Assembly: GCA_949130485.1 (NCBI GenBank)
Contig: OX422185.1
Span: 10,576,118 to 10,640,117, forward strand
Reading direction: 5' to 3'
DNA length: 64,000 nt
Origin: Agelas oroides
Taxonomy: Eukaryota; Porifera; Demospongiae; Agelasida; Agelasidae
Shown here: positions 2,848-54,567 of the stretch, one piece after another
Layout of the letters: every line of letters starts with the position of its first letter
Position numbering within the stretch: position 1 is the first letter of the stretch
Notes under the pieces: model-generated
Database searches by the model: none
Told to the model about the DNA's origin: nothing
The model's input: the letters and a program-made list of their open reading frames with translations, nothing else
Translations under genes and position numbers: made by a program

Positions 2848-3545
2848 AAGGGGGGGGTGGTTTAGTAGAGTGCTGTGGTGTCAGTAGCTGTGAGTAGTGC
2901 GTAATCCTGCTTGTGAAAGCAAGCTTGTGTCTAGAAGCAGCAGAAAGGCCACAGTGGCCAAGACTGTACTCATTGAGTAGGCCCAGGTCTTGCGATCGTA
3001 TGCTAAGCTTAGTAGGTGACCGTGGCCCGGTGCTTCGAGTGCTGGGCTGGGCTTTAACTAGAATGTGCAATGTATCGTTGGTACTACCCTGCAGTACACA
3101 AGAAAGCTGAAGAATGTTTGTGTGTGGAACAGAGCCGTGAGCTGTTTAGCGACATGAGGGGAGAGGTGGGAGTATTAATGCTTGCTTCCATTCGTGCATG
3201 AGCCCCTCCCGTAGACAAGCTGTTTGAAGTGTGCATTCAGTTTGGTGCAGTCAAAGTTGTCCATTCCAAGAGTATAGTGACAAACATGAGTCTAGCCTGA
3301 CCTTGAGAGTAGTTCGGAACAAATGGATTGGTTTGAGATACATTGGTGGTTAGGACGCTACCTACAGGGAGCATGTAGATGTCATCCATCAGTGGCAATT
3401 TTGGGTTCATGAATACATTAATAATTACTAAAACCCTTTTTAAAATTGGGAAAAGCAAGATTGCCCCAAAGGAAACCCTAACCCTGAAACTAGGAGTAAC
3501 CCTGCTCCTGACTGTAACCCATGCAGGTTTGTGTTTTCGTTAACC
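2848..3545 (+). repeat. Dispersed repeat family A, copy 1
   Basis: About 700 bp nearly identical in layout to 21870-23205 (inverted) and 47579-48560 (direct). Shared landmarks in order are the TTTAGTAGAGTGCTGT block, CTTGTGTCTAGAAGCAGCAG, GCCCAGGTCTTGC, GGGCTGGGCTTTAACTAG, GAGCCCCTCCCGTAGACAAG, and a terminal segment CCCTAACCCTGAAACTAGG. The left part present in the other copies (the CAAGGTCAACAT end) is missing, so this copy is truncated. No intact protein frame is shared by all copies. The superfamily is unknown. Confidence 0.75.
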
Positions 3546-6388: not shown

Positions 6389-7222
6389 TCATTGATTAGA
6401 ATCTTCGGCAGCAGCAGTGCTCTCAGTCTGTGGTTGATCTTCCTTCTTTACCTCCTCCTCCTGCTTCTCTGTTTCCATGTCTTCTCCATATGTGGCATGA
6501 TATCCGTAGGGCCCCCACGTCCACTGTGTGGAATGTGGGCCTTCATGTACCACTGGCTCCCAGGAACCGAATGGTCTGACTGTCCAACCTGGAGGAAAGT
6601 CAGGAATGGCAGGTGCTTTTATAGGCGTACGGCTCAATTCTTGTGACTTCCTTCGGGCTTCCTCCAAGTGCTTCATCCTTTCTTCCTGTGCTTGCTTTGC
6701 CTTTTGCATAAGCGCCTTTCTTCGCTCTATCTCAGCCTTGCGCACCTTCTCTTCGTACAATCGCTGCTGGCGTAGCTGTTCTTCTCTCTCGCGAAGGGCC
6801 TGCTGTCGTTCGCTGAAAAAAGCTCCAATGGGATGGTGATGCAGGTGGTGTCCCAATGTACCGAATAGGGATGGTAGGCTTAGTCCGTGTTGGAAGAATG
6901 GATCGCTCCAGGAATCACTGAAGAAGTCCGCATCCATCAGCCCATGAGATGGCGTCGATTCCTTGACTTTTATAGCGATGAGCACACGAATTGTGTTGTC
7001 TGTCCCGGCATGTTCGAGGGCTGTCCGGAGTTCTTCGTCTGAGCAAAAGCTTATGTTGTCACCATCGGCGTCTCTGTAGTAGAGGCGGACGTCATCTGGA
7101 TTCTGCTCTCCAAGGGAAGGAAACACTCGGACGAGTTTCAGCACCAGATCGGAGTAGGAAATATCCGACTCGACTGTGATCTTACGAATCTCGTTGTTGA
7201 ATGCTGCCTTGATGAGCACCAT
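6389..7222 (-). CDS. PB1-domain and coiled-coil protein, single exon (277 aa)
   Basis: The protein starts at the ATG at 7222 and reads through without an intron. Residues about 2-85 form a PB1 domain: a lysine near the start (VLIKAAF) and a complete acidic OPCA-type loop, YRDADGDNISFCSDEEL, near residues 50-67. PB1 domains of this kind pair front-to-back with basic PB1 partners, as in p62/SQSTM1, NBR1, TFG and atypical PKC. A His-rich patch (GHHLHHH) follows, then a strongly charged helix of about 60 residues (roughly 135-195; Glu, Arg, Lys and Gln rich) that should be a coiled coil, then a Pro/Trp-rich segment and an acidic low-complexity tail. There is no ZZ, UBA or LIR-like motif that I can recognise, so it is not a plain p62 orthologue. 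Two perfect heat-shock elements and a TATA-like box upstream suggest stress-induced expression. It is probably a cytosolic scaffold or co-chaperone-like protein; that function is inferred. Confidence 0.85.
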   Translation of the reverse strand: MVLIKAAFNNEIRKITVESDISYSDLVLKLVRVFPSLGEQNPDDVRLYYRDADGDNISFCSDEELRTALEHAGTDNTIRVLIAIKVKESTPSHGLMDADFFSDSWSDPFFQHGLSLPSLFGTLGHHLHHHPIGAFFSERQQALREREEQLRQQRLYEEKVRKAEIERRKALMQKAKQAQEERMKHLEEARRKSQELSRTPIKAPAIPDFPPGWTVRPFGSWEPVVHEGPHSTQWTWGPYGYHATYGEDMETEKQEEEVKKEDQPQTESTAAAEDSNQ

Positions 7223-7324
7223 GCCTTGCTCTACTCTGCAGGAAAGATCTTCGTGTCGTATTCTTGAGCTACGGTATTGGCCGATGTTTTACTAGTAATG
7301 TCGCCTAGTAATGCAACTGACCGC

Positions 7325-9600: not shown

Positions 9601-9706
9601 TCATACATAAAGGTCAAGTTTAACAAAGTCAGTGTTGCTCTTCCTTTGTTCTGCTGCCTGTCGTATCTGTGCTTTTCCCTCTTCACTGAAACCATTAAGT
9701 TGAAGG
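9601..9706 (-). CDS. NLR exon 8: C-terminal cap and stop
   Basis: The acceptor is TTTTGACCTCCAG and the exon keeps phase with exon 7. It encodes LQLNGFSEEGKAQIRQAAEQ and a short tail ending DLYV before TGA at 9603-9601. The pattern (SxxGxxxIRxAxEQR) is the usual last RI-like repeat of metazoan NLRs. Confidence 0.8.
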
Positions 9707-12700
9707 CTGGAGGTCAAAAGATCACAATAGTGCTATAATGCTTACCAAACTAATACGTGAATGCAAGTATTAATTTCGAATGAAGCCTCAATTAGTCATT
9801 AATTATCCAAATGAGCAACATTTTTCACTATGTGGTAGCAAAGTATGATAAAAATGGACACTCCAGGTGACTAAATCAGGATGACAGAGGAGGTCAGGTA
9901 AAAATTAATGTTTTTTTTTTATTGTGTAACATGCACAGCAAGATTGTGGTACTAGAACAGTGAAATATTCACAAGTTCATATGAACCCTTTCTGTATGAT
10001 CAAGCAAACTGCTTTAATGTGTAGTTTCTACATGTTCTAGTAACCCCTTGACAACTGCCAAGTGGGAAGTGATTGGCTGTGAATTATGCACAGGAACCCT
10101 AGTTATACAATGCATGGCCAGAGCAAGCAGTGTTTGAGTGGTCAGACCACACATGTGCTTTTGCCTGCATGCCTGCTGTTGAAATATGTTATAAACTTCA
10201 GGCCCGGAGATCACTTTTGATGGTAAACTGCTATCGAAGACTTTAGCTGAAGGAGGCTTGTATTCGTATTTCAAAACACAAAGTTCCAGCTAACAGTGAG
10301 AAATAGACTTCATACATAATCTCACACATTGGTCACTGCCAATGGCTGAGTCAGATTTTGAAGGAGACATGTCTAACAGAAATTTATTCAGTGATCATGT
10401 GATGTGCTTGATTATTCAACCAGTATAATTATACAACCAAAACCTGCTAAACATATCCCTGAATGTGCATTGAAATTAGCATAAATATATAAACATTAGA
10501 TGCACAATGACTGGTTGTTTGAGAATATCAATATCGTGGTTATAATGGATAATAATATGAGGCCAAATAGGGGTTGTGAAATAGGTTAAGTTATGAACCT
10601 AATGTAGTGGTAACTGCCTAGAGTTTTATTCACAGTTTCAACATCGTAGCCTCAATCCCAGCCCTTTGCAGCCTCCAGTATATTTGATCATCTCTAGTAT
10701 GCAAATACAAAGGAGGATGCCCTTGGTGATCATGTCATATGGAATGATGTCAAAGCAGGTTAGGTAGCTAGACAAAATGTAGACACACAGAGTCAGGTCT
10801 CATTATTACCACTTAGCTATATACCATTGCACTGAGCAACAATTTCATAAGTTGAGCATATTTTGATATAAGATAACTATACACAAGCATGCAATGTATG
10901 ACTGTTAACTTTCAGACTTGTAGCTAGCCATGAGATGAAGTAGGGAATTTGCTGACATACAGGTGTCCTTTTGATAAAGGAGTTTATGAACATCTTAGCA
11001 AAAAGAGTTCCTAGTACAGTTCCTTTGAGGAGTGAGGGTGGTGTAGCCAGTGAAGTGAGCGTCCAATCAATAAGTCTGCAAGTCTGCTATGTGTGAACTA
11101 TCAAATGGTGTAGGCATTTCGGTGAGCCAAGAAATTTTGAAGTTGTATTGAGTTGGATATTAAATCTCCTGCTTTGGCTTGAAAGTAACAACATGTTTAC
11201 TATGGAAACATTGTAGCACACTATCTGGTCATAGTCTCTTGTCCAGACCCATGTCTCTTTTAAGGAACAAAATCTGCTGACACAAGCCTGAACCTTGACA
11301 TGGGCTTGTGGAAGTGCAGAAACCATCACAAATCAGCCAGCATTGAACGGTGAGTTTCATAACATCACCTTGAACGGTAAGATTGAAGTACAAACCTGAC
11401 TTACTATACTTCCTTGAGAAACTTTGCAGTCTTAATGAGCTCTTCCAAGGCTGGGACACTATCATCAGTGACATGATTGTTAATAAGGCTGAATGAGAGA
11501 ATATAATTGTACATGTACACAAGGAATGTTTACACAATGTACTATACAACAAAGACAATCAATGCTCTACGTTAAAAAATAATACTATAGTGAGTATATC
11601 AAATGGATTTTATGGAGAGCCAATGTAAACAATTGGTGGACACTACTCTCTATAATTAATATTTGGTGTCCTGTGGTACTACAGTGCTTAACTTCATACT
11701 CACCTAAGGTGTTGAAGCTTTGTGCATTTTTTCAGGGCACTTGCCAATGCCACTCCTCCTCTATCTCCAATCTGGTTTTCTTGAAGACTGTGGAGAGATA
11801 ACACTCAGTCACCATATCCAGCCGAGATCAAATACTAACATGCTGTTCCTAAACTACACCACAGATTACTAACCCATCTATCTTTACATATTTTTGAAAC
11901 TATAATGTTGCACTTGCAAAAAGAAAAAAGATGGAGGGGTGGGGTGGAGGGGTGGGGTGAAGGGGGGGGGGGGGGGGTGGGGGCCGAGCGCGAAGTGCGA
12001 GGCGTCGCCGAGCGTAGAACGCAAGGTGGAGAGATGCTCCCGACGCTAGCGGGAGGCTGGCGAGCTTCAGCGTTGAGGGGCAAGGAAGCAGGGCGCTTCC
12101 GCGAAGTAGCTGGCGTGTCCATCGTTGCTGCGGGCGGTCCGGGTTCGCGGTAGACACTTTAACAGTAGACAACCGAGTGGTTTAAATAAACTTAATATTT
12201 CGACTGCGGGATGAGTCTTCTTCAGGAGATGACTGGTGACTGTGAGGCAGCTAGCTATACAGTATAGCTGCGAGTAGTAAATATAGGCCCAGTTCAAGTT
12301 GTGAGATGTTAGGTGCCATGTGCTTAGATAAGCATTAGCGTTGTGCTAAAACCAAGGTGACTGTATAAATTTTTCTTGAGTTATTGTTATTGATTCAACA
12401 AAGAAAATGACACTTTCATTACATCTTTCGACTCAATTTTAGGTATGACATTGTCATTCTATTTGTAAACCGGTGGATGAACTCCACTTCAAGTATGTTG
12501 TCATTCTTGAGATGGGGACCATCCTGTTTATCATCTTAGGTTTCAAATCAATTCAGGCAGTTGGACAAAAAACAAAACAATAAAACAACTGCTTTAACAT
12601 AGTCAATGATGTACGTGTTTGCACTGGCAAACCTTTGGAGAAAGTTTATTGTGGACAATGTTTTCATGTGAGGAAGTTATAGTTAGGCAAAGTTGCTGTT

Positions 12701-15700
12701 GTTAGTAAGTTCATGAATGCAGAAGTAGCTGTTTCTTTGAGAAGAAAGATATTTCCTACAAGAAACGTGGTTTTGACCAGCATAAGTGATGACTGTGATG
12801 GGATAACTTATGTAAATTTTTTTTTGCATGTGATAGTTGTTTTATTAAAGCAGTTCAACATACTCACTCCAGGAATTGAAGCTGCTTGCACTCCTGCAGT
12901 GCACTGGAGAGAGCTTGGCATTCACAATCACTGATGGAAGCATCAAAGAGGCTGTGCAAAGAATGGAATGAAGACTACTTAAATTTTATCCATCATTTAA
13001 TGATTGAATTATTTCCTGTACGAAAGTTGTGCCATATTTTGTTTTTAGTATTCATGCATGCTAATTTTAAGTTGCTTTTAATAAATATGCTACAAATGTG
13101 CATACATTATTACAGGTAGTACATTCCATTGCATATTATTACATAGTGTTGTATACCTCGTGATTTCACTTGCCTTCAGCAGATATTCTGAGCCATTTAT
13201 CTATTTTACAACAATTTCTTCAGACAAAGCACCAGAACAATCCACATTCCAGTTTCACAATTCAACCTTGCCACAATACATATGCAGTATACTATTCAGA
13301 AAATGCATAGGTTATATAATAGCTTGGCCCAACAAAATGTGCAAGACTGCAGCATGCACAAGGAGCATAAGTATTAAAATAAGCTCAGCTTTATTTTTGT
13401 TCACAGCATGCAACACCAGTATAATAACTAGACCTGAAGCTAAAAAGGTCAAGTTTTTTAATGAGACATTAAATGCATGTAAGATACTGACAACACAAAA
13501 GAATCATCAGGTTCAAATGCAGACATGAGATGCTATAGAAACACAACAAACATTTCTTCGCTGTCCTAGCTCTTTGTCTTAAACTGCAAAGGATTTAGGT
13601 ATAGCTCCCATATAAGGTGCAAGCTTTAGATATGTTCTTTTCCACTCGAAATTATACAATTCACAGTTTAGTTATCCACTTGATAACTTACACAGCAAGT
13701 ACACTGCAGCTGTATTGTGTGCAAATTGTTACATGATTATTGATAATTTTAGCTGCACTTTATTGGAGTTGCATGCTAGCAATATCTGATTTTGTAGGCG
13801 GAACACCAAGTATGGGGAACTGAGGTAAGTTAAAAATAGGACAGCTACGAACATGGTAGCTGATACTGTTGTAGCTATGTCAACTTACTGTAACTTTTGA
13901 AGGTGAACAAATTTCTTCATGCCTGAAGAGAGTGATGTGATGTCACTTCCTTTAAGAGAATTGTTGTTGAGACTGTAAAAGTAATAAAATCAAAAGGGAA
14001 CTGTACACAGACAAACCCAGCAGGAGAAGATGAGAAGTAAAGACAAGGGTTGGAGAAGAGGATATGTATAGTGAGAAGCAAACACTATATACTGAAAAGA
14101 CTGAATTCCACAGTAAGCACATTTGGTGTTTAGCACACGTACTACATTACTGAATGATGTATAATTTCCTCTTACTGTAGGCACAACTGTCATCTTGCAA
14201 TATAGTACTTATACATCAGGCTTTCCACCCGCCAGGTCATAGTAGACTATTTTTATTTTGTTGTCAGTCATCGTAGAGTGTAAATTCAAGTACTGGCTTA
14301 CAACAAATAGTACACTTGGTGGCCAGTATGAGACCAGTAAGTCCACATGTAAGTCAAAGAGCAGCAACTCTACAGTTTACTCCCTAGGAAACCATAATAC
14401 AAAGGACAGTAAGCTTCCCAGGTCCCATGAGCTCAGAGTTGACAAAATACTAAGGTCATTCATCATGCCCATTTGCCATAATTACCCTGTAGTTTTACAA
14501 CTTCCAGTGGTATAGTAATCTACAACTTTCTGTGCAAGAGTGAAAATTATTATGCACCTGTTACTATAGAAGCAATAGCGAAGTGGAGAATATAATACAA
14601 ATACAGTACAGGAGAGTGGCAGTATCTCTATGTAGTATGGTACAAACGTACAATATAGCTATGTAGTACCTTTAAGCAAAGTTAGCCAGCATCATACCTT
14701 TATCTTTCAGTGATTTTGTAACCAACAACACTAGCTATAATGCTACATAGTTGACCAAAAGTGTTGCAAAAAACAGGTAACTAAACACAAACGTGAATGG
14801 CATTTTTCAGGGTTAATTGTTCTTCAAAACTGATATTTACAAACAGAAATCTGAATGTTAAACGTTCCAGAGGGTGTAGGCAACAAGAGTCACTCATGAC
14901 TTCATGACCCAAACTGAACCCATACCAACGTTTACAGCCACACTATACTTTGCTGTCTGTTGGGGGGTCATCATCTTCTATTTGTGTATGTTAATTACTT
15001 ATGAGCACTTACTTCAAAACATGTAGCTTGTAAACTTGACCTTGTGAAAGCAGCTGTTTTAAGCCTTCAGCATCAATGGAGCAGCCACGAAGATTAGTGT
15101 AAATTTCTGCACCATGTTCAAATAAGTAGCTGATGGAGAGACAGTCTGTTGGATTGACAGTCATGAAACTTAGATCCAGTTTTTCCCCAAGATTTTCTGC
15201 TACAAACTTGTATATAAATGTGTTCTTAGCTTCATGTAAACAGTGCAGTAGAGACAGTAAACAAGCCTTGTCTTCAGTACCAGGTTTGTCAGCTGTACCT
15301 CGTTTTAGAATCAGAAGAACGATGTCTTCAATTCCTGGAGATGCTAACTTTGTGATGCAAGAGTAGTGTCTAAATGTTGACGAAAATCGAGCTTGACCAA
15401 ATAGCGTATTGAATTGTGCTACCTGTTGTGCTGGTTTGAATGCAGTTGCAATGTGATGTGCAGCCAAGAACTCCTGGATAGACAAATGGAAAAAAGTATA
15501 AAAATATTCGGTTCCGTAAGAAGTGAAGCACTCTACTCCTTGAAGCAGACCAAGAGTGTCAAAATTCTTAGAAAGTTCAAAGATGACACCGTCTTCCATC
15601 ACTCCTTTGTAAGCTATCTTACAAAGCTCATGGTATTGGGGTTCCAATTCTGAAGGAAGATTAGCCAAGGACTTGATGGCATCTATTTCAAGCTGGTTTT

Positions 15701-18700
15701 GTTTTTTTACATGACGAAGTATGCAATTTCTGATGAGAGCTTCAAAGATGCGATGCTCTGTAGCAGGTAAATCTTTATCCCAAATAAACACATTTACAAG
15801 AATAGAAGCATTCAGTGGGATGGCACAAGTTCCTGTCACGGCAGGGTTTTTCTTGATCCTTTGCCATAGTTCTTCTGCTTTGCTGGCGTCTCCACCTAAA
15901 CACTCAGTAAAATAATGATGAAGTTCGAGATGGTCAAACCCTAGTATTTCGATTCGTGTTGGTTGATGGTGCTTTAAAACAAAATGCAGATTTGCTGATG
16001 AAGTTTGTCGAGATGTTATGACTACATCACTCTCTGGCAGTTCATATCGCCGAATGATTTCAGAAATGGTCTCACGACCTGGAACCTTCTTGGGTAGTTC
16101 ATCCCAACCGTCCAGTATGAAAAGGACTCCACTTCCATGTCTACTGTCTATAACCTTTGCTATGTCATCAAGCTCACCTTTCATCCCAACATGTGGTAGT
16201 ATTTCTTTGATCTCTTCTGCACTGTGAATGGCTGGCTCCCTCAGTCGTACTAAAACAACAAGTTTGTAGTCTTTGAACATCTTTCCATCTGCCCACTCCT
16301 TACAGAGGTGAAGAGTGAGTGCTGTCTTGCCTGATCCAGGGCAGCCCTCAAAGACAATTGTCATCTGTTCATCAGTTTTCCTGAAGATATCTTGCAGTTC
16401 GATTGCATTTTCATCCTCATCTTCTCTTCCAGTCATTTGCAGTCTTATAATTGTATCCGATTCTTGAGACTTTTTCTTTAAATGGAGGCGAATGAACTTT
16501 TTACTCTGTTGAAGAGGCCATTGTTCTATTGGATCAGTTTCACAAACTGGTCTGCACTTGTAGCGTTCTTTTAGCTTGTCAGCATACTTTTCAGCAACTA
16601 CAAGAAACACATTTTGCCTTATAAACAAAAGATACTGTTGATCGATATAAGCTATATTCTAACTAAGAAAATTTGGTGCATATGGATTTCAATAGTCACA
16701 TTATTTTAGCTACTATTACACCTTGCACAGTTTCTGTATGCTACTGGTATATATGCTCTATGTGAAGTTGCAGCCACCCACAACATAACTCATTCTCCAT
16801 GCACAACAATGTGCACTACACACTCATCACTACTCACTTCACTGTCTTTCACATGCAAGACAATCTTCCTGTATACACACGTAACAAAAACAAGGGCATG
16901 GTAATTGGCAAAATAGAGCAACATATAGGATTTTAATGGTGTAAAAGTAGTGTGGTGCCACTCCCATCTTGCTTGGATGATTTAGGGTCTGTCCTATTGT
17001 AGAAATCTTTTGCAACCTTATATACAATCGTTATAGGGGTAGCAAGCTCTTAGGACACCAACTCACTTGGAGGCCAATCAGCAATGGCAGGTGGTGGCAC
17101 ATCTAACCCTGTACAAACGAAGGGGACATGTAAGACTAAAGCTAGGGCTGTGCATGCTTATACTGAAGCATGTAGGCACTGAAAGTACTGAGATACAAGG
17201 CTAGCTACATACCATGCTAATGCATGCCATATCTAAAAAAAGAAGATACAGTGAGTTTGCTCAGAATGTCTACCTACAATACAGGCCAATCTGTTTAGTA
17301 AGTATTTACCATGGCAAAGCCAGAGAAAAGAAGGCTAGTACTCATAGGCGTAGGAACCGTGGGGGGGCACCGGGGGGCATGTGCCCCCCAAGTTTACGTA
17401 AATTGTTATATAAATTGCTCACTACTCTATGTATAGTTTCAAACTGTGCTACCCCAATCAAAAAGGCTTACCTACGCTACTGGTACTTATACAAACTTTT
17501 AGAACCCACTTTTTGAATACCATGCACTATTCATGCAGTACTCTCACTGATGTCTAATCTAATGCTATAAGATGGTGAGCATGGTTTGGGCAATGATTGC
17601 TGACTATCTCTGTTTCTCAATAGGACATGAACTGGTAAGAAAAGAGAGTGTATGCCTAAATAAATCATGCACGGCTTGACTGGTGCTGGTGATGTAACTG
17701 CTACTAAGTTAATGTTCATGTATCTGGAAACTGCACAGTATAATTATACGTATCAATCTAGAGCAACTTTCTGATTTTTAAGGTTTTGTGTTTTAGGTAT
17801 ATTCAAGACAGTAATGAGCTTTGTCTTGGTTTAATATCAACATTCATACACTTCCCATCAAATCATATTATCTACATGTGATATATCAGAGAGTCGGTAG
17901 ACTCTCTATGTAGGGATGGCGCCGACGCGCAATATATGCAATACTTAAGCATAAGCCGTATAACTTCACCACAAACACGCTAAAAGCTTATTTAAGCGCC
18001 CAGGGTTCCTCTTTGAGTGCCTTTGTGATCAGCAAGACTCATATAGTTGCCCAAATGCCACGCGGAAGACAGCTAAACGTAAAAGTGTGCGGTAGCAAAA
18101 GTGCCATTTTTCGTATTCTTCTGTCTTCTTTCTTCTTCTTTCTTTGTTCAGACCACTTGTCAAACAACGATAACTCGAAAACGGCTCAAGTACTCACCTT
18201 GATTTTAGCACGAAACTGATACTCATCACAGCGCGCAGCTTCCCAACCACTCAGCGTCTTCATAGCTTCAGATTTACCCTGGTCAAAATAGCTGTTCACA
18301 GCACTGCCCGACTGCTGTCCGTTGCATAGGACGCCATTTTATAATCTTGTACGCATGCGCACATGCAGTCTAGTTCCCAGACCGAAAACCACGGTCATTG
18401 CTCTGGGAACGAGACTAATGCTCACACGAAATCGCGCTTGTTGACTGTATGCACGGCTGGCACGGTCTATTCCCGTGGTTGTGGGAAGGGCTTATGGACA
18501 CTACGTAGGTAAGGAGCTGTATTCAGTTGCTTACTTAGACTATGGCTACACTATAAAATACAGCTTTAGGTAACGCCTGGATGGTCAGTTTTTATGCTCT
18601 GTCGGTACAGTTGTCTGTCAGTGCTGGTCAGTTGTCATGTGATCGTAAATGGGCTATTCCATTTAATAGGTGTGCACCCCCTGTGGATGAACAGATTTGA

Positions 18701-21700
18701 GTTCTCCCCTTGGACAACAAATTAGTAGCATCACCCCGGCCCCCCTTGGACGTAATCAAAGCAGGCTATTGAGCCCCCTGGACACAATTTACCCCCTGGA
18801 CACAATTATTTTGCCTTTTAACCCCCCTGAACATAATTAACTTGACTGCACCCCCCCTAGACATAATTAAGGTTCATCCACAGGGGGTGTCCGCCTATTT
18901 AATGGAATAGCCCAATATAAGGAAATTGGCTTCACAAAGGGGTCAAAATCTGGTACAGAGAGTTATTAGCCCTCCATCGGATTCCAGCTGGCATATTACA
19001 CGCTTGGAACCACTGCTAAGCTGTCTGCTTCAAGTTCTAGGGTTGTGATTACACTTGAACGAATCTTCTTAGGCTTAGGTCTAACTGTAACTGAGGTTAA
19101 CATCAAAAAAGTACAGAAACAAGAAATAAAAAACATTAAAAATGTAAAAAAGATGTAGGGATGGCATGCCAAAAAGTATACAAACAAGGTAGGGATGATA
19201 GCATAAAAGCAAAGGTCAACATAAAGGCAATGCCCCATCCCTACATCTTTTTCACACTGCAGTTAGACAGTATGCTTGAAACCTAAACCTGCACCCATCC
19301 GTGGAGTTAACAATGCTGTAAATGAGCACCGACCACTTGAGTTTTTAAACACTGTACAGCACTGACTGTATGACCAGTCCTGCAGCTCACTTCAGCTCAG
19401 TGTCTAGGTTGTATAAGCGGTCCCATATACAATATTAAATGCCAACAATTAAGGGTTCCACCGTTACTACAAGCAGCATGTCAGCACCAAAAGCTACCTG
19501 GTCGCTACATGCATAGCAGGCACATACCCCATGCTGCTAGACTACACTGCAATCTGGACCCCAGACCCTTCTTGCCCTTTCAGAAGGGTTTGGAGTCCAG
19601 GCCCCAGGCCATGTGGGAGGAGGAATGTGGCCTGAGAACAAGGCTACAGCTATGCCCTTCACAGTGGCGTAGGAACCGTAGCGGCCGTAGCGGCTTTGGC
19701 CGCTACACTTTTTAGGCCACAAATTAATATTCATAACCTGCTAAAGTTACTATACAGTGGCGTAGGAACCGTAGCGGCTTTGGCCGCTGCACTTTTTAGG
19801 CCGCAAATTAATATTCATAACCTGCTAAGTTATACTAATAGCTCAAGCTAGCCTCGTTCCCAGCCTCTTCGTTGCATCGGTCTCATATGCAGTTACATGC
19901 GTACATTTCTGCAGTACATGCACTATAAAAGCGATCGAAATCTACATGTACAAGCGACGAAAGCTGGGCCGTCTCCTGCGAACAGTATCTTACCCGTTTT
20001 CCACATAAATTGAATATTTTACTGGACGGTTGGGAAGGTTTGAGAACGATGCTAGAATATTACATATCCTTGAAAAAAGGCTTTAATTAAGTGCTGTCTG
20101 AAGGTGCACACTTTTAAAAAAAAAAATTCGCCGCCGCGCTACGCGCGGCGAAATCATTTTTCCCCACCGCGCTTTGCGCGGCACACCATGCATGGCCTCT
20201 ACACTTCAAATTTGCTTCCTACGCCCATGCTTCAAGAACTGCCAGTAAGGTTGTGGTACATTTTAGTTATAACTGCAGTGTGAAAAAGATGTAGGGATGG
20301 GGCATTGCCTTTATGTTGACCTTTGCTTTTATGCTATCATCCCTACCTTGTTTGTATACTTTTTGGCATGCCATCCCTACATCTTTTTTACATTTTTAAT
20401 GTTTTTTATTTCTTGTATATATAAGTGTCACCTACTGATGTGACTTGAAGAACACTTTTTACTTTTTCTACCTAACTAACCAGAAAATATTTTATAGCCA
20501 CCCTACTTCATAATATATTATATAACCTTCAAAATGTATTGTTGTTTGGATATAACTTGCACTTCATATTTTACACTTGCAAACATCATTTCAAATGATA
20601 GCTTTTCGACCATCTCACAAGTTCATGCCATTTTTTGACAGGTTTTCAGGAAACTCCACAGTTAGCCACACAATGCTAGTCCAGTTATGAGTGTTCATTC
20701 AAAAGGTGGGATTGAGCATCTTTTTGCAGGTGGACACTCCTTTTTGCATTACTGCATATTATGCTCATAAGTAAAAAAAAGAATGTACAAGTGCATAGGT
20801 GTAGGAACCGGGGGGGGGGGGGGGGGTACCATGTGCCCCCCCGTTCATAAATTGTTATATAAATTGCTCACTACTCTGTGTGTAGTTTCAGACTGTGCTC
20901 CCCCAATCAAAAAGTCTTTCCTACGTCTATGAAGTGTTTCTGCAGTATACTTTCTGTTGAAGAGATAACCTAGATTCCTGACACCTCAAGTTAATACTGT
21001 AAATTGTACACAATATTTTTTAATCTAAGGCTGTAAATATAACAATCAGCTCACCATATTTCTCACAAAGTCTTTTCACTTCATCTCTGTTTCCAATTGC
21101 ATTAACTGCCTGAATCAGTACCTCACAGGTTGATTTACAGTTATTCAACCAAAATTCAAACATACATGTCAGGCAGCTTTGCGATTGATAAGGATTATCA
21201 ACTTGTATGGTATTCAGCTGATGTTGAGGCACCTCAAGTAATGTTCCCAGATTTTTCCACTCGGCTACCAGGTGAAGAGAGGAGAGGAATGCAAGGTTGG
21301 CGGGTGATGCATCTGGAGAAGTGACAAACACATGCATAATTTAGGGTCAATTGACTAAGATAGTCAAGCTGATTATTCACTGTTATCAGAGAGTCGGTAG
21401 TAGGGATGGTATGAATGCGCATAATATGCAATACTTAACGTATAACATGACCACAAATACGCTAAAAGCTTAATTTTTAAGCACCCAGTCTTCCTCTTTT
21501 TCTTTGAGTACTTGTATGCATGATCAACAAGACTCATAGAATTGCCCAAAAGCATAGATATGGAGTGGGACTATATCTTCACTTGTATTGTGAAAAGACG
21601 AGGGTTTGTATACCTTAACCATTATATCCTACCTTGTTTGTGTACTTTTTGGCATACCATCCCTACTTCTCTTTTCTTTTTTAATTAGTGATAATTTCTT

Positions 21701-24094
21701 TCTATAGAGTAACCTTCAGCTAGAGTGGGCACTCTTGACTATATACTATTTAATTGGAGCAGAAGCCTTTCCCAGATATGCCAGAAACTGGAATAAAATT
21801 AACATATCTCTTTAGGTTTACATAACAAAAACAATTAAAAATATTTTAAGCAATAATTGTGCATGATTTAAGGTGGTGGTGGAAGTCTCTCGGCGGAGGT
21901 TAACGAAAACATAAACCTGGGTTAGTCAGGACCAGGGTTACTCCTAGTTTCAGGGTTAGGGTTTGGTTTAGGGCAATCTTGCTTTGCCTAATTTTAAAAA
22001 AGGATTTTAGCTGCTTATTAATATATTCATGACCCAAAATTGCCACTCGGTGGACGCATCTACATGCTCACTGTAGGTAGCGTCCTAACCACCAATGTAT
22101 CTCAAATCATTCTGCGCCAGCTTTTGTTCAGAGCTACTCCCAAAGTCAGGCTAGACTCATGTTTGTCACTACTCCTGGAATGGACAACTTTGACTGCACC
22201 AAAATGAATGCACATTTATCACTGCTTGTCTACGGGAGGGGCTCATTCACGAGTGGAAGCAAGCATTACTAGCCCCACCTCTCCCCCTTATGTCGCTAAA
22301 CAACTCACGGCTCTGTTCCACACACAACCACTCTTCAGCTTTCTTGTCTACTGCAGCGTAGTACCAACGATATATTGCGCATTCTAGTTAAAGCCCAGCC
22401 CAGCACTCGAAGCACCGGGCCACGGTCACTGACTAGGCTTGGCATATGATCGCAAGACCTGGGCCTACCCAATGAGTACAGTCTTGGCCACTGTGGCCTT
22501 TCTGCTGCTTCCAGACACAAGTTTGCTTTCACAAGCAGGCATTACGCACTGCTCACAGCTACTGACACTACAGCACTCTACTAAAGTCCTTCTTTTTTTT
22601 TTTTTTTTTAAGTCGATCTAAGCTAATCTTCAAAGTTCCGACCACCACATGAGGGGTTCCGCCAGGCCATACGATGCCAATGCCGACAGAAAATCCCCAA
22701 TTTTACGGACAGTGAAGACTGACTGTTCGCTAAAATTTTAAGAAGACAAAGAATTCCATCAGCTTGGATCAGTGGCGTAGCCAGGACATCGCCGATGCTA
22801 GGGCACAGCATGGGCACATTATGTTTGTGCAAAATTCTGCGCGAAGTGTAGGGTCTGGGGCATGCTCTCCCAGAAAATGTTTGGAATTTTACAGCCTCCC
22901 AGGTCGGTTCTTAGGCCGTATTGTAGTGCAGTGTATGTAACGGCAAACTCGTGCGTACGGTGAGCGTACGAGACCCGTAATTCTGTGGATAAACATAGCG
23001 ATACTGCGCCGTTCGATAAAGACCGTTTAGCGCCCGATTGGCGATCGACAACGATATCTTCCTATCAGCGCCGATAATTCGGACGCATACCTGCACTGGT
23101 GGGGTACAGCCTCTAGTTGCTAGGGCATGTGCCCCAGTGTGCCCCAGCCTGGCTACGCCACTGGCTTGGATTCCAGGTTTGTCGACCTTGAAAGTACAGG
23201 GTTCTCTGCCAGAACATGATTCTGACTCAGTAGGTGAAAAGCACTTGTGTTGGAATGCCTAGGATATGATATTTCCCTGCTATTGTAGCCAAAATGAGTC
23301 ATCCTTGCAAGTGAGATAATTATGCAATTATAAGTTAGCCTTGAATGTAACAAAATCCTGCGATTAGTTCATGTCACACAAGTCATCAGATGTTTGCTGC
23401 TCAAATGACTAGTCTTCAAGCAAAAATGTCTGTGTTGAAATGTTTTACTTCTTTTCTTTTTCAATTTCTTTGGTTTTATGGACATTTTGTAATGAACATT
23501 TTCAAATTGAACATTTTTACAATCATAAATAAAGTATTTTAGACTAAGTGCAAAGGGTTGCCTGTGAGTAGTTAGGTCAATAGGTGAAGCTTGTTAGAGA
23601 GCATGTACGAGACAATATTAACCCGTACTAAGACCAACGTAAATATACACGTTTGCCCCAAATTGACAATCTCAAAACATCTAAATTTTTCTTTGGGGGA
23701 CATAAACCCAGACCCTCTGCATATACTGACTTACGCGCGCACTTATTTGGCCCAAACGCCACGGAAGTATATAGTTGTCTCAGTCGCACAGAATAATGCG
23801 GCGCAAATAAATAAGCCTTCAACCGTGTGTAGCTGTATGAAAGTGAGGTAGCTGGTTTTTTTTTAGTTCACAAGTCTGTTAGATGTGAGATGGTGTTAAT
23901 CATATTTACAACAACTAACACAATTTCATAAACTGCCAATATGTTGGGGTTCTCTCTACCAATATGCTGACGTTATGTCGAAATTAAGTGGATACTGATC
24001 ATATACCTAGCTTGATAGGACCCGGGTTCAACTCCACGTCTCCAGCAAGAATGAGTAACATGTCAAGTAGCCGGCCAAAGGAGGTTGTTTCCAT
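9601..24094 (-). CDS. NLR immune receptor: 2A-like leader, DEATH, NACHT, LRR (8 exons)
   Basis: I join eight exons on the minus strand: 24094-24007, 21312-21055, 17108-17067, 16597-15013, 13972-13889, 11787-11704, 11488-11405 and 9706-9601. All intron phases agree, the lengths sum to 2331 nt (777 codons with the stop), and every junction uses GT and AG. The product is a tripartite NLR: a DEATH domain for homotypic adaptor binding, a NACHT ATPase for nucleotide-driven oligomerisation, and a C-terminal RI-like LRR sensor. NLRs of this design are known from sponges, cnidarians and sea urchins and act as intracellular pattern receptors. The first exon adds a hydrophobic leader ending in a 2A-like motif, which may send a fraction of the protein into the secretory pathway. 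Only about five LRRs are seen, fewer than in many NLRs; missed exons are possible. Joining of exon 1 is the least certain step. Confidence 0.75.
9850..11400. other. Last NLR intron, no further exon found
   Basis: I searched this stretch on the minus strand for 84-nt LRR exons and found none. A segment at 10630-10690 faintly resembles a decayed C-terminal LRR (RLQRAGIEA) but lacks splice sites. No other feature seen. Confidence 0.4.
11405..11488 (-). CDS. NLR exon 7: LRR (84 nt)
   Basis: Exactly 84 nt, same phases, between CTCTCATTCAG and GTAAGT. It encodes LINNHVTDDSVPALEELIKT, a more divergent LRR. Confidence 0.8.
11704..11787 (-). CDS. NLR exon 6: LRR (84 nt)
   Basis: Exactly 84 nt, same phases, between CTCTCCACAG and GTGAGT. 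It encodes LQENQIGDRGGVALASALKK, a textbook RI-like LRR with the GxxLAxAL core. Confidence 0.85.
11930..12260 (-). mobile_element. 3' end of a retroelement with G-rich terminus
   Basis: On the minus strand this reads TCCTGAAGAAGACTCATCCC, then AGTCGAAATATTAAG, then GC-rich sequence, and ends in a long C run (G run 11962-11979 on this strand). The CTGAAGA...GRCT...AGYC-GAAA layout is common at termini of Penelope-like and other retroelements and overlaps with hammerhead-like cores. The GC-rich composition contrasts with the AT-rich intron around it. No reverse transcriptase remains. The assignment to a superfamily is a guess. Confidence 0.4.
12300..13880. other. NLR intron sequence, no gene seen
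   Basis: AT-rich with frequent stops. The open frames at 12713-13119 and 13160-13528 (plus strand) show no domain and biased low-complexity composition, so I leave them out. Confidence 0.4.
13889..13972 (-). CDS. NLR exon 5: LRR (84 nt)
   Basis: Exactly 84 nt, phase 2 to phase 2, between CTTTTACAG and GTAAGT. It encodes LNNNSLKGSDITSLSSGMKK, an RI-like LRR, and ends HLQKLQ. The 28-residue single-repeat exon is the standard NLR LRR module. Confidence 0.8.
14000..15000. other. NLR intron between NACHT and the first separate LRR
   Basis: No additional LRR exon could be found. A short acidic frame at about 14955-14990 (EDDDPPTDSK) has no splice sites and is rejected. Confidence 0.4.
15013..16597 (-). 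CDS. NLR exon 4: NACHT domain and first LRR
   Basis: One 1585-nt exon. The acceptor TTTCTTGTAG at 16600-16598 is chosen because it keeps phase with exon 3, although the frame itself is open from 16634. Motifs in order: pre-NACHT helix (YADKLKERYK), Walker A GCPGSGKT, Walker B ILDGWDEL with the second acidic residue, sensor-1 ITSRQ, the GxP-like CAIPLNAS, and the winged-helix/HD2 hallmark HLSIQEFLAAHH. The exon closes with a partial leucine-rich repeat (GLKQLLSQGQVYKLHVL). All catalytic residues for ATP binding are present, so the ATPase looks intact. Confidence 0.9.
17067..17108 (-). CDS. NLR exon 3: short Pro-rich linker
   Basis: A 42-nt exon between CGTTTGTACAG and GTGAGT encoding about LDVPPPAIADWPP. 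Its phases (2 bases in, 1 base out) fit both the DEATH exon and the NACHT exon, which is the main support. It links the DEATH and NACHT domains. Confidence 0.6.
17343..17482. mobile_element. hAT-like MITE with GGCGTAGGAACC end (140 bp)
   Basis: The left end is CATAGGCGTAGGAACC and the right end ACCTACGCTACTG; both resemble the CAGTGGCGTAGGAACC terminus of the hAT-like elements at 19662 and 22771. The interior, with ATTGTTATATAAATTGCTCA, is nearly identical to 20796-20935, which shows a shared source. Confidence 0.6.
17885..18060. repeat. Dispersed repeat, partner of 21384-21556
   Basis: CAGAGAGTCGGTAG, TGCAATACTTAA, CGCTAAAAGCTTA and CAGCAAGACTCATA/CAACAAGACTCATA occur in the same order at 21386-21556. 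The repeat carries a GTAGGGATGG motif and belongs with the small TIR element of that sequence. Confidence 0.6.
18198..18345 (-). other. Candidate promoter and first exon on the minus strand
   Basis: Reading the minus strand, an NRF1-like GCGCATGCGT at about 18352-18361 and ATTATAAAATGG at about 18335-18346 precede an open frame that includes MKTLSGWEAARCDEYQFRAK and ends at a clean GTGAGT donor (18197-18192). The first ATG (in AAAATGGCG) is out of frame with this peptide and soon stops, so the start is uncertain. The exon lies inside an NLR intron; its phase-0 end does not fit the phase of NLR exon 3, so it is not an obvious alternative NLR start. It may be a nested gene. Confidence 0.3.
18371..18416. 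mobile_element. Small foldback TAGTTCCCAGA...GGGAACGAGACTA
   Basis: A 46-bp hairpin with ends TAGTTCCCAGACC and CTCTGGGAACGAGACTA. The ends match the TAG...CTA family described at 28157, 33015 and 34097. No clear 9-bp duplication flanks it. Confidence 0.45.
18651..18913. mobile_element. MITE with ~40-bp TIRs and C-rich mini-repeats (263 bp)
   Basis: The left end GGGCTATTCCATTTAATAGG and right end TATTTAATGGAATAGCCC are inverted copies that extend through CCCCCTGTGGATGAAC. The interior is made of about six degenerate copies of a CCCCCTGGACACAATTA unit. No coding capacity. Confidence 0.7.
19119..19265. repeat. Left arm of a perfect 147-bp inverted repeat
   Basis: This segment is the exact reverse complement of 20270-20416 as far as I can read, including the inner GTAGGGATGGCATGCC and CCATCCCTAC motifs of the small TIR element family. 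The 1-kb interval between the arms holds hAT-like MITEs. Confidence 0.75.
19662..20228. mobile_element. hAT-like MITE with duplicated 5' end
   Basis: CAGTGGCGTAGGAACCGTAG begins at 19662 and again at 19755, each followed by a CGGCTTTGGCCGC block and GCAAATTAATATTCATAACC. A single degenerate 3' end, CTTCCTACGCCCATG, lies at 20214-20228. The interior has a GC-rich palindrome (CGCCGCGCTACGCGCGGCG, about 20131-20149, and CCGCGCTTTGCGCGG). Nested insertion of one copy into another, or a 93-bp tandem duplication of the 5' end, would explain it. Confidence 0.55.
20270..20416. repeat. Right arm of a perfect 147-bp inverted repeat
   Basis: Exact reverse complement of 19119-19265. Such perfection indicates a recent duplication or gene conversion between the arms. 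Confidence 0.75.
20796..20935. mobile_element. hAT-like MITE, partner of 17343-17482
   Basis: The ends are CATAGGTGTAGGAACC and TTTCCTACGTCTATG, and the flanks share AAGTG. The interior matches 17343-17482, with a longer G run (about 20811-20827). Confidence 0.6.
21055..21312 (-). CDS. NLR exon 2: DEATH domain
   Basis: The exon is 258 nt (86 codons), preceded by TGTCACTTCTCCAG and followed by the donor GTGAGC. It encodes a complete death-fold: the FLSSLHLVAEWKNLGTLLEV helices with the conserved Trp, PQHQLNTI, then a CLTCMFEFWLNN helix with the second conserved Trp, and a last helix ending VKRLCEKYG. The whole domain in one exon fits exon-shuffled DEATH modules of metazoan NLRs. Confidence 0.8.
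21400..21666. mobile_element. MITE with GTAGGGATGGTATG ends (267 bp)
   Basis: The left end GTAGGGATGGTATG and right end CATACCATCCCTAC form perfect 14-bp inverted repeats. It lies just upstream of the NLR DEATH exon. The inner right part (CCTTGTTTGTGTACTTTTTGG) is shared with the 19119/20270 arms. Confidence 0.65.
21870..23205 (-). repeat. Dispersed repeat family A, copy 2 (inverted, interrupted)
   Basis: The same landmarks as copy 1 occur in reverse order, from GGTGGTGGTGGAAGTCT through AGTTTCAGGGTTAGGG and CTTGTCTACGGGAGGGGCTC to CAAAGTTCCGACCACCACATG and GTCGACCTTGAAAGTACAGG. It is interrupted by the 393-bp hAT-like MITE at 22771-23163. It sits in the first intron of the NLR gene. Confidence 0.75.
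22771..23163. mobile_element. hAT-like MITE (393 bp) with 8-bp target duplication
   Basis: The terminal repeats are CAGTGGCGTAGCCAGG and CCTGGCTACGCCACTG, perfectly inverted. The 8-bp duplication GCTTGGAT flanks both ends (22763-22770 and 23164-23171), as expected for hAT elements. No transposase is encoded. It is inserted in family A copy 2, so it is younger. The element at 41032-41424 has the same length and related interior. Confidence 0.9.
24007..24094 (-). CDS. NLR exon 1: hydrophobic leader with 2A-like motif
   Basis: From the ATG at 24092-24094 the exon reads M-E-T-T-S-F-G, a Leu-rich stretch (RLLDMLLILAG), and then DVELNPGP at 24040-24017, a full match to the 2A consensus D-[VI]-E-x-N-P-G-P. 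Ribosomes skip the Gly-Pro bond in such motifs. The exon ends IKL plus one base before a GTATAT donor; that base joins the first two of the DEATH exon to make an Asp codon. Start choice: this ATG makes the 2A motif part of a 26-residue leader, as in sea urchin NLR leaders. The frame stays open upstream to 24511, with repeated EKR-type triplets and an ATG at 24118, so a longer N-terminus is possible. A retrotransposon origin is the alternative, since 2A also occurs in non-LTR elements. Confidence 0.6.
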
Positions 24095-24850
24095 TCCTGC
24101 GTTTCGGCGTTTCTCCATCGATTTACGTTTTTCCCAGCCGCGTTTCTCGTATCCACGTTTCTCCGATCCAACAAGGAAGAACACGAGTGCTAGACGGATC
24201 GGCGGTAAGACACAAGTGCTCGTAAGTTGGCACAACAGGTTGTTGAAAAAGTTGCTTCTGCTGTCAAACACTATCACTAGGGTGAACAGCGCAACTAAGG
24301 GAAGGAAATGGTTGCGCGCTCGAGTCTGCTGCTGGGTAGCTCTCCTCACTTTGTATCTGGCTTTAAATGTGCGCTTGCATTCATGTTTCTTCTTTCTCGG
24401 TCTGCCACTCAGTGGTTTGAAGCACCGACGACGACGAACAAGTGGCCTTCCTACCGCGAACGCATGCCAGAGACCTATCCTAGCTCTCCACTGGTTTACG
24501 TCGATCCCCATATTTGGTGGTGCTTCAAATCTAGCACAATGTATTTACTGCTCTGTCCGCACCGTTTTCAGTGCCACACATTTTACACATCAACATAAAT
24601 GCTCTACTTGCTACTGCTTTACTTATATTCATGTAAAAGTTGCAAATTTTGGCTCAAAACTTTTCATCACTATGGAGCAACATAAAAGAGAGTTTTACTA
24701 ATTCTAATTCAGAATGACGCTAATTTACTAATCTCAATTCAAATTCCCAGAAAGTTTTCAGTTTCACAGCACAAAATTTACAAATTCTAATTCAAATGAA
24801 GTGAATAAAGTTTACCACTTCTGATTAAATGCTTCTGAGCAACATAATAA
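24095..24850. other. 5' flank or extended exon 1 of the NLR gene
   Basis: On the minus strand the frame of the 2A leader stays open to 24511, giving a basic, partly hydrophobic peptide with four EKR triplets immediately before the leader. It may be untranslated sequence or a longer N-terminus. On the plus strand a 237-codon frame (23988-24701) runs antisense to it; I treat that as chance. Confidence 0.35.
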
Positions 24851-47578: not shown

Positions 47579-48560
47579 AGGTGGCAGGGAACCCTGCATT
47601 TTCAAGGTCAACATACCTCGAATCCAAGCTGATAGAATTCTTTGTCTTTGTAAACTTTTAGCGCACAGTCCGTTTTGGGAGTCTTCATCCGTTCACTGTC
47701 CATAAAATTGGGGATTTTCCCAATTTCCTGTCGGCATTGACATCCAATAATCAGTTTATAATTAAGTTAGTTAAGATGTGGCCTGGCGTAACCCCTCATG
47801 TGGTGGTCAGAACTTTGAAGATAACCTTAGATCAACTTTAAAAAAAACAGAGGAGTTTAGTGGAGTGCTGTAGTGTTAGTAGCTGTCATAGTGCGTAATG
47901 CCTGCTTGTGAAAGCTAGCTTGTGTCTAGAAGCAGCAGAAAGGCTACAGTGGCCAAGACTGAACTCACTGGGTAGGCCCAGGTCTTGCAATCGCCTAGTA
48001 GGTGACCGTGGCCTGGTGCTCCGAGTGGTGGGCTGGGCTTTAACTAGAATGTGCAATATATCGTTGGAACTACCCTGCTGTAGAGAAGAAAGCTCCAGAG
48101 GAGTTGTGTGTGGAACAGAACCGTGAGTTGTTTAGCGACATAAGGGGGAGAGGTGGGGCTAGTAATGCTTGCTTCCACTCGTGAATGAGCCCCTCCCGTA
48201 GACAAGCTGTGAATTTTTTGAAATGTGCATTCATTTTGGTGCAGTCAAAGTTGTCCATTCCAAAAGTAGTGACAAACATGAGTCTAGCCTGACTTTGAGA
48301 GTTAGCTCTGAACAAAAGCTGGCACAGATTGATCTGAGATACATTGGTGGTTAGGACGCTACCTAGAGTGAGTGTGTAGATGCGTCCATCGAGTGGCAAT
48401 TTTGGGTTCATGAATATATTAATGAGCCACTAAAACCCTTTTTAAAATTAGGTGAAGCAAGATTGCCCTAAAGCAAACCCTAACCCTGAAACTAGGAGTA
48501 ACCCTGGTCCTGACTGTAACCCAAGTTTATGTTTTCGTTAACCTCCGCCAAAAGACTTCC
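47579..48560 (+). repeat. Dispersed repeat family A, copy 3 (most complete)
   Basis: It opens GGTGGCAGGGAACCCTGCAT, contains all landmarks of copies 1 and 2 including CTCATGTGGTGGTCAGAACT, and closes in CCCTAACCCTGAAACTAGG and GTTTTCGTTAACCTCCGCC. About 1 kb. It has no open frame that survives in all copies. Confidence 0.75.
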
Positions 48561-51904: not shown

Positions 51905-52090
51905 CTAGCTTAGTACGCTGATGCTCTACCTTCTGAGCCAAGAAGCCCATCCGGCAAGCACAGCAGTGGAGGAAGTGTTCTTAGGGCTGAACTTGTGGCT
52001 GTCCTTGCCGGATGAGCTTCTTGGCTCAGAAGGTAGAGCATCAGCGTACTAAGCTGAAGGTCGCTGGTTCAAGTCCCCGTAAAAGTCCAC
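51905..52090. repeat. Head-to-head pair of tRNA-like sequences
   Basis: On the plus strand 52009-52080 reads GGATGAGCTTCTTGGCTCAG, AAGGTAGAGCATCAGCGTAC, TAAGCTGAAGGTCGCTGGTT and CAAGTCCCCG, with good A and B boxes and an ACT anticodon-like loop. The first 50 bp are repeated inverted at 51905-51955. Acceptor stems do not pair, so these are tRNA-derived repeats. Confidence 0.55.
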
Positions 52091-52353
52091 TTTATACTCC
52101 TACCCCAAAAATTGTGCTTTATTCAGACAAACCAGGCTAGGCTGGGTTTGGTTGCCCTAGACTTAAATAACCATTATGTCTGTATAGCCACTCAATTTGA
52201 CCAGTGTAAGTTCACAGTTTGCCAGCATAACTTTAATACTTGGAGTGGGAGTAATCTCACAAAAGGCAGAAAAAAAACTTGAGAGAAAACTGTATATTCT
52301 CTAAATTTGGTAGTGTAATAAATAATTGTAGTTTTACAATGAAGAGGACACTC

Positions 52354-52593
52354 CTAGAAACCAAGGGCATTACATAAACAAAACAACAGCAGAAGAGAAT
52401 GCATGGTGCAATGAGAAGTTATAGAATTGGCATCTAAAAGCACTGAACATAGCCAATACTTGGTCCATTTTACTGCCTGATCCAAGATCATAATGCATTC
52501 TTCTGGTTTCATAGCGTTGTTGGAACAGACACTGTACCATGGTTTCCCCAACCCACTGTACATTTGCACTATGTACACCTTCCTGTCAGTCAT
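52354..52593 (-). CDS. Array unit 1 ORF (79 aa)
   Basis: The frame follows an acceptor CTTCCTTTCACAG by 19 nt and reads MTDRKVYIVQMYSGLGKPWY, then SVCSNNAMKPEECIMILDQA, then VKWTKYWLCSV. It is the longest-lived version of the frame found in every unit. Family unknown. It is probably one exon of a spliced gene. Confidence 0.4.
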   Translation of the reverse strand: MTDRKVYIVQMYSGLGKPWYSVCSNNAMKPEECIMILDQAVKWTKYWLCSVLLDANSITSHCTMHSLLLLFCLCNALGF

Positions 52594-53720
52594 GGTCAGA
52601 AAGGCTCACTTCCTGTGAAAGGAAGATTTGGTTGAATATTAATAGTCAAGCTGCCACATTCCTGTGAATAGTTACACATTGGGGCCATTCACTAATGTTT
52701 CTGGAAGGGCTGCATGCATGCATGCACTGTGAAAAGGGAATTGTAATTTCAACCAGCCATTTGCTATGTAAGTTTTAGGTGAATAAATATATTACATGTT
52801 AATTCTGTGAACAGATTGGTTAAGAATCCAAAAACACATTGCAGCTATCATCTTTCCACCTTTTCCTCCATGCCCAACATTTCCTCATCTACATCACATA
52901 GTATAGTATTCTTGATTGGCGACATGTTTGTTATTTTTTATTCAGATGAGTGAGTAAATGGCTGGCGTTGATGGCAAAAGGAATGCTGAGTTTTGCATTG
53001 TTAAAAGTATGACTGTCCATGCATGTAATATGTTACCTCACTTGTCACTCAGATAACAAATGGATAGTCCTAATGACAATTCCTTTCTTATATATAATTA
53101 TATATACACTCTCATATATGATTGACTGCAGCCACCATGTTACCCTAGCTGCTGCATTATTCCTCCTTGGAACTCAGCTAAAGGAAAAAGAATACACTTT
53201 AAGAGCAGGGAAAGAGTTACAAATGGTAGTAAATGGTAACTGCGATTAGGAGGTAGTCTGTTTCTTGTCATTCATCCCATCTGATTACTGACATGAACTT
53301 TCAGAGCACCTTTTCGAAGTGCTGGTAAGTTACGAGTATAGCCACGCATTGAATGACGTACACATAGCTTACCTAGCAGCGATCAGCTACTTAGATAAAC
53401 TAATCCAGCGTAGTCACACACTATCTAGGCCAAAGGCTACGCCCAGGGCTTGCTATAAACGAACGCTTGGCACTTTGACCTCAGAGTAATAATGCTGATT
53501 ATGCAACAGCTGTTGCGGTTAATTAACGGTGATGTAATATTATTGCTGCGCCAAGAGGGTTAATACTTTGGAAGGCACAAAAAAAAGGAAACTGTATATT
53601 CTCAAAAATTTCGTAGTGTAATAAATAATCAATGAGGAGGCCACTCCTAGAAAGCAAAGGCATTACATAAACAAAGCAACAGCAGAAGAGAATGCATGGT
53701 GCAATGACCTTTATGAGAAG

Positions 53721-53891
53721 TTAGCAACCATCTAAATCCACTGAACATAGCCAATACTTGGCCATTTTTACTGCCCGATCCAAGATCATAATCCCTTCTT
53801 CTGGTTTCATAGCGTTATTGGAACAGACACTGTACCATGGTTTCCTCAACCCACTGTACATTTGCACTATGTGCACCTTTCTGTCAGTCAT
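53721..53891 (-). CDS. Array unit 2 ORF (56 aa)
   Basis: Same frame as unit 1, MTDRKVHIVQMYSGLRKPWY, ending VDLDGC and TAA. Units 3, 4 and 5 have the same 56-codon form; unit 6 has lost the ATG (ATT). Confidence 0.35.
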   Translation of the reverse strand: MTDRKVHIVQMYSGLRKPWYSVCSNNAMKPEEGIMILDRAVKMAKYWLCSVDLDGC

Positions 53892-54567
53892 GGTCAGAAA
53901 GGCTCACTTCCTGTAAAAGGAAGATTTGGTTGGTTGAATATTAATAGTCAAGCTGCCATATTCCTGTGAATAGTTATGCATTAGGGCCATTCACTAATGT
54001 TTCTGGAAGGGCTGCATGCATGCATGCACTGTGAAAAGGGAATTGTCATTTCAACCAGCCATTTGCTATGTGAGTTTTTTTATAAGTGAATAAATATATT
54101 ACATGCATGGACAGTTAATTCTGTGAACGGATTGGTTAAGAATCCAAAAACACATTGCAGCAATCATCTTTCCACCTTTTCCTCCATGCCCAACACTTCC
54201 TCATCTACACCACATAGTATAGTTATTTTTGTATTCTTGATTGGCGACATGTTTGTTATTTTATATTCAGGTGAGTGAGTAAATGGCCGGTGTTGATGGC
54301 AAAAGGAATGCTGAGTTTTGCATTAAAAGTATGCCTTTATGAGAAGTTATCAAAAGTATGACTGTCCATGCATGTAATATGTTGCCTCACTTGTCACTCA
54401 GATAACAAATGGCAAGTCCTAATGACAATTTCTTTCTTTTATATAATTATATATACACTCACATGTAGGATTGACTGCAGCCACCAAGGTATCCTGCTGC
54501 ATTATTCCTCCTGGGAACTCACAGCTAAAGATACACTTTAAGAGCAGAGAAAGAGTTACAAATGGTA

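Follow-up and report, generated by a model that had tools for sequence, protein, structure and literature searches.

A conserved leader exon with a predicted ribosome-skipping (2A) sequence at the probable start of a sponge DEATH-NACHT-LRR receptor gene

A DEATH-NACHT-LRR gene preceded by a 2A leader exon

The window is a stretch of 64,000 nucleotides of the Agelas oroides genome, and the genome that we searched with its sequences comprised 259.3 Mb in 141 contigs. On the minus strand, the window contains a gene for an NLR of the DEATH-NACHT-LRR type. In the joined protein, the Death domain scored 30.9 bits against a Pfam cut-off of 22.6, and NACHT (69.9 bits), LRR_4 (37.0 bits) and LRR_6 (32.6 bits) were all above their Pfam cut-offs as well. 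The gene model has the following features, all on the minus strand.

24007..24511, minus: leader exon, 168 codons plus one base (MGIDVNQWRARIGLWHAF... to ...NPGPIKL-G); open frame, five paralogues, 33 full-length homologues including itself
24260..24310, minus: first hydrophobic segment, residues 68-84; Kyte-Doolittle windows
24167..24217, minus: second hydrophobic segment, residues 99-115; Kyte-Doolittle windows
24041..24073, minus: Leu-rich 2A context RLLDMLLILAG; sequence, and register against the F2A residues given in the accessible part of PMC12846837
24017..24040, minus: 2A/StopGo core DVELNPGP, predicted skip between Gly-164 and Pro-165; sequence, kept in paralogues and homologues
24001..24006, minus: splice donor after the leader, phase 1; position common to all six paralogues (+10 nt from NPGP)
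21055..21312, minus: DEATH exon, phase 1 to phase 1; PF00531, phase kept in four paralogues
15013..16597, minus: NACHT exon; PF05729, exon bounds
13889..13972, minus: LRR exon 1 (84 nt); gene model
12868..12951, minus: LRR exon 2 (84 nt); gene model
11704..11787, minus: LRR exon 3 (84 nt); gene model, LRR_4 and LRR_6 over cut-off at residues 833-876
11405..11488, minus: LRR exon 4 (84 nt); gene model, LRR_4 and LRR_6 over cut-off at residues 833-876
9601..9706, minus: last exon with stop codon; gene model

The leader lies in an open frame (23999-24544) whose first Met is at 24511. The codons of the 2A core run from 24040 to 24017, and a GT donor at 24006 follows three codons and one base after DVELNPGP. 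This donor, GTATAT, is weaker than most of the leader donors that we compared. The DEATH exon starts at 21312, directly after CAG, and its first two bases complete the split codon. All eight exons are in frame, every donor is GT and every acceptor is AG, and the intron phases are 1, 1, 2, 2, 2, 2 and 2. The first-pass annotation had described this predicted in-frame junction of the 2A sequence to the receptor, the restored codon and the unbroken frame, and the gene model bears out all three. Its exon total of 2331 nt was wrong: starting from the Met at 24094, which it had taken as the beginning of a short leader, the model is 2373 nt long with the stop codon. From Met 24511 it is 2790 nt, encoding 929 amino acids.

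Several other features of the window were recorded. Intron 1 of the receptor gene contains a repeat (21924-22550) that is inverted relative to 2906-3513, at 90-94% identity, and is also approximately 93-96% identical to 47890-48515. Downstream of the receptor gene, a frame at 6392-7288 on the minus strand encodes a PB1 domain (50.2 bits). The region from 52276 to 61873 is a tandem array of units of approximately 1.35 kb, many of them 95-100% identical, and a weak match to tRNA at 52017 was the only one from Rfam.

The leader belongs to a family of conserved exons

A similarity search of the genome with the whole leader, rather than with the 2A pattern, found six places including the window, the other five being 53-64% identical to it. 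All six leaders end in D-V-E-x-N-P-G-P, followed by three codons and one base and then a G|GTA donor. Met 24511 is kept in five of the six paralogues and in 30 of 33 full-length homologues, as compared to three and nine, respectively, for Met 24094, which we rejected as the start. The conserved frame therefore probably begins at Met 24511, giving a leader of 168 codons and not the short one proposed earlier. D-x-E-x-N-P-G-P is kept in every one of the 33 aligned full-length homologues, a set that includes the window protein and leaves out the partial or distant proteins P0034-P0093.

What follows the leader is also conserved. There is a homologous DEATH exon, 54-60% identical, on the same strand 2.1-7.6 kb downstream of four of the five other paralogues, and these four exons share the phase-1 acceptor and donor of the window gene. 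A NACHT exon lies within 8-16 kb after three paralogues. Two paralogues on contig C3, at approximately 15 Mb, have no listed NACHT closer than 42-44 kb downstream, which is too distant to claim a single gene, and for the paralogue on C4 no recognizable DEATH exon was found in the approximately 16 kb ahead of its NACHT. The sixth member, at C13:1841203, has a palindromic insert that breaks the leader past approximately codon 12 (L019 5877-6207, equivalent to C13:1840876-1841206). Frames of an LTR-type retroelement (protease, RT, RNase H and integrase by Pfam) were seen downstream of the DEATH exon of the paralogue at C3:14932222, from L012 8522 to L013 1947; this element does not adjoin the 2A sequence and is of a different kind from the APE elements discussed below.

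We measured selection on five members of the window family, leaving out L005, which has a broken N-terminus. Pairwise dN/dS was 0.26-0.37, and 0.09 for the closest pair. Pooled, uncorrected pN/pS from the five sequences was 0.04 for the eight codons of the 2A, 0.27 for the twelve codons ahead of it and 0.49 for the remainder of the leader. A phase-1 donor after NPGP was present in 34 of 36 loci. Pfam detected no family in the leader, and an AlphaFold model built on the 33-row alignment was poor (mean pLDDT 52, pTM 0.21). Taken together, these comparisons indicate that 24511-24007 is very probably the genuine first coding exon of the receptor and a member of a large conserved leader family.

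2A leaders and Death domains across the genome

A degenerate 2A pattern, GAYRTNGARNNNAAYCCNGGNCC, had 285 matches in the genome, compared to none for the reversed control. The analysis of neighborhoods covered 258 of these 285 sites, together with 105 of 314 NACHT candidates and 150 of 810 Death candidates. A listed 2A site was present on the same strand within 6 kb upstream of 89 of the 150 scored Death places, a proportion that does not represent all Death domains because the Death query came from a 2A-bearing locus. None was downstream or on the opposite strand, and 200 random placements averaged 1.0, with a maximum of 5. In six cases the Death match starts in frame 0-2 codons past NPGP, so an intron is not needed at these places. 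For NACHT, with the window's own excluded, 13 of the 105 listed places were preceded on their own strand, at a distance of up to 20 kb, by a listed 2A, two had one downstream and none had one on the opposite strand.

Reading 30 loci on contig C1 revealed two further classes of leader, which we call A2 and B. Class A2 shares its MGID..WRARIGL start with the window's family, and class B starts differently. In both, a hydrophobic segment is followed by a second hydrophobic stretch that abuts the 2A sequence. Of the 30 loci, 29 have a Death-like domain no more than 1.5 kb downstream, and leader plus Death units occur in tandem arrays in the genome. Both classes were found by means of the 2A pattern, so that constraint on the motif within them is circular; the loci compared, 7 of A2 and 11 of B, were picked by hand among the 30 fetched. 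Queries lacking the 2A part gave 80 matches for A2, of which 69 were followed by a listed 2A, and 63 for B, of which 55 were. Judged by these patterns, 2A leaders are widespread in the genome, and many other Death genes are predicted to carry one.

Of the 258 listed 2A sites, half (129) had no assignment to any of the three leader classes. Some 2A sites are identical dispersed 23-mers that may be borne by retrotransposons. Clusters of DVETNPGP, at approximately 6.5-10.2 Mb on C8 and 3.0-3.3 Mb on C7, fall in none of the three classes. In the C1 arrays, Death is followed by a conserved region approximately 200 residues long (L048, L049, L050 and L052); two copies of it, L048 and L052, were scanned with Pfam, which detected no family.

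Related leaders in other sponges

A profile of the leader matched 93 proteins, and an Amphimedon-type profile matched 798, of which the best 120 were listed. Among the matches listed, the closest named relatives were proteins of Amphimedon queenslandica. The N-terminal motif of the leader is kept in Amphimedon relatives, and the 2A sequence is kept in 31 of the 32 named Amphimedon UniRef proteins with a related leader among the matches listed. By their source names, these 32 comprise 19 Death, 2 CARD, 1 NACHT and 10 uncharacterized proteins. In five Amphimedon-type proteins (P0072, P0079, P0084, P0085 and P0091), Pfam detected no Death domain at E values up to 0.5, so the UniProt names "Death" and "CARD" rest on the source. 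Likewise, P0267, named NACHT by its source, had only a weak NTPase match below the cut-off. Five relatives in other genomes combine the 2A sequence and a precomputed Pfam Death domain within one open frame.

The DEATH-NACHT-LRR architecture of the window gene is shared with NLRs of Dysidea avara, as described in the accessible part of PMC12909245, and with UniRef models of Amphimedon queenslandica. The Amphimedon models also resemble the window gene in having a related leader with 2A. Transmembrane segments are reported in some Dysidea avara NLRs, and the accessible text of that paper makes no mention of 2A or of a skipping leader (PMC12909245). The literature search, whose coverage excluded most subscription journals, found no description of a sponge 2A leader of this type.

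Predicted skipping and topology of the leader

In the 2A of foot-and-mouth type (F2A), according to the accessible part of PMC12846837, changing D12 or N16 abolishes skipping, and changing L7 or L9 lowers it. By register, all four residues are matched in the window leader, and the likeness extends to the Leu positions, Ala-Gly, D, E, N and the NPGP skip site (PMC12846837). Most ribosomes should therefore release the leader at Gly-164 and continue with the receptor from Pro-165. The leader itself begins with 67 basic residues, which are not of the cleavable-signal type. Its net charge is +20 before the first hydrophobic segment, +1 in the loop and +5 between the second segment and the 2A sequence. 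The positive-inside rule relates such charges to topology; by this rule, basic ends and a near-neutral loop predict a hairpin whose two ends both lie in the cytosol. A receptor chain still attached to such a hairpin would be tethered to the membrane and face the cytosol, rather than being exported. This topology is derived from simple hydropathy and charge, and in several relatives the hydrophobic stretch touches the 2A sequence, which allows other arrangements.

The reading that we consider probable is that the 2A first exon yields, in most rounds of translation, a leader anchored as a membrane hairpin and a soluble receptor. The bond between Gly164 and Pro165 would be skipped in most rounds, freeing the leader peptide, which would probably be held in the membrane by its hydrophobic hairpin, and a soluble cytosolic receptor beginning at Pro-165 would then be made. 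Chains in which skipping fails would stay fused to the hairpin, tethered to the membrane with their DEATH-NACHT-LRR part on the cytosolic side. The parts of this reading differ in strength. The sequence itself shows the exon structure, the leader family, the link of these leaders to Death domains, and that both the leader and its 2A are constrained. Splicing of the leader to the DEATH exon in vivo is predicted with high confidence. Skipping at the window 2A is highly likely, and insertion of the leader in a membrane is likely. That the tethered pool matters is nearly an even question, leaning slightly toward no.

The main alternatives differ in the fate of the two products. In sea urchins, the leaders of NLRs with 2A (SpNLR2A) direct an unskipped reporter into the exocytic pathway, as reported in the accessible part of PMC4981915, and the window leader is hydrophobic, as a similar secretory role would have it; the unskipped chains would then be exported or lumenal and the skipped ones cytosolic. 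Against this stand the 67-residue basic start of the conserved leader and its two hydrophobic segments flanked by basic stretches, and we regard such dual targeting as improbable. Thus, of the dual-targeted 2A-leader NLR proposed in the first-pass annotation, the 2A leader as first exon is very probable, but the exported pool is disfavored by the charges. It is conceivable, if rather unlikely, that skipping is nearly complete, so that the leader acts as a stand-alone membrane peptide made 1:1 with the receptor and a tethered form is of no consequence. Purifying selection on the leader outside its last 20 codons (the pN/pS of 0.49) and the retention of its N-terminal motif in Amphimedon relatives are consistent with this, but a targeting or tethering role would predict constraint on the leader as well. 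ER translocation of an upstream sequence can inhibit 2A, according to the accessible part of PMC2978324. The ratio of the two pools would then depend on membrane targeting, and at the extreme the 2A would do little or nothing and the leader would be only a membrane anchor. That extreme seems very unlikely, since no part of the leader in the window's family is more constrained than the motif codons and D-x-E-x-N-P-G-P is kept in all 33 homologues aligned.

Two further possibilities concern the transcript and the origin of the exon. An open frame at 21020-21340 has an ATG at 21337 that reads into the DEATH exon, so a leaderless transcript from intron 1 could supply some receptor that never carries the leader; we consider this quite unlikely. 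The first-pass annotation had given, as a refuting case, that 24007-24511 belongs to a non-LTR retrotransposon; the exon would then be the 5' end of such an element or a remnant of one. A 2A sequence is known in APE-type non-LTR elements (cited in the accessible parts of PMC4981915 and PMC11512398), and the identical dispersed 23-mers among the 2A sites of this genome may be such elements. However, the in-phase DEATH exons beside four of the five other paralogous leaders, the tandem leader and Death arrays and the six places elsewhere in the genome where 2A and Death are fused in frame all contradict this origin. In the window, 2A is followed by the DEATH exon, and of 10 frames around the leader none matched a transposon domain or was an endonuclease or reverse transcriptase frame. 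We therefore rejected it as extremely improbable.

Comparison with known 2A systems

The closest known precedent appears to be the NLRs of the sea urchin Strongylocentrotus purpuratus. As reported in the accessible part of Roulston et al. (2016; PMC4981915), approximately 35% of these (85 of 241) have a 2A sequence, the 14 listed N-terminal SpNLR2A sequences are 26 amino acids long, and both skipping and secretory targeting were shown for a tested leader. The likeness is that DEATH-NACHT-LRR receptors carry a 2A-like sequence at their N-terminus or close to it, as do the window gene model and its paralogues. In contrast to the short signal leader of 26 amino acids, the conserved window leader has 168 codons, and the leaders of this genome run to 130-170 residues and combine two hydrophobic segments with a basic N-terminal motif that is conserved. 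Unlike in SpNLR2A, a phase-1 intron separates the sponge leader from Death in most of the loci read, and such leaders also precede Death genes with no listed NACHT nearby. By this comparison, the sponge leader is longer, of another likely topology and placed ahead of a wider set of Death genes.

The other two systems share the motif but differ in its setting. F2A sits in a viral polyprotein, whereas the window 2A is in a host first exon. APE-type non-LTR retrotransposons also place D-[VI]-E-x-N-P-G-P in an animal genome, but there it precedes endonuclease and reverse transcriptase, whereas the window leader precedes a DEATH exon.

Implications

With these results, the hosts that use ribosome skipping would include a second, distant group of animals. 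The longer leader, with its likely hairpin tether on the cytosolic face, departs from the export model. On a more speculative and rather doubtful extrapolation, the sponge may have a genome-wide immune StopGo system, in which approximately a hundred or more death-fold genes, NLRs included, each encode in one frame a conserved membrane-hairpin peptide and a soluble signaling protein. Because the efficiency of skipping depends on the behavior of the ribosome, the balance between free and tethered receptor could serve as a readout of translation stress in infection. The window gene offers a test of whether an NLR is divided between membrane and cytosol by translation alone. If the leaders are homologous to those of sea urchins, the device would date to early animals.
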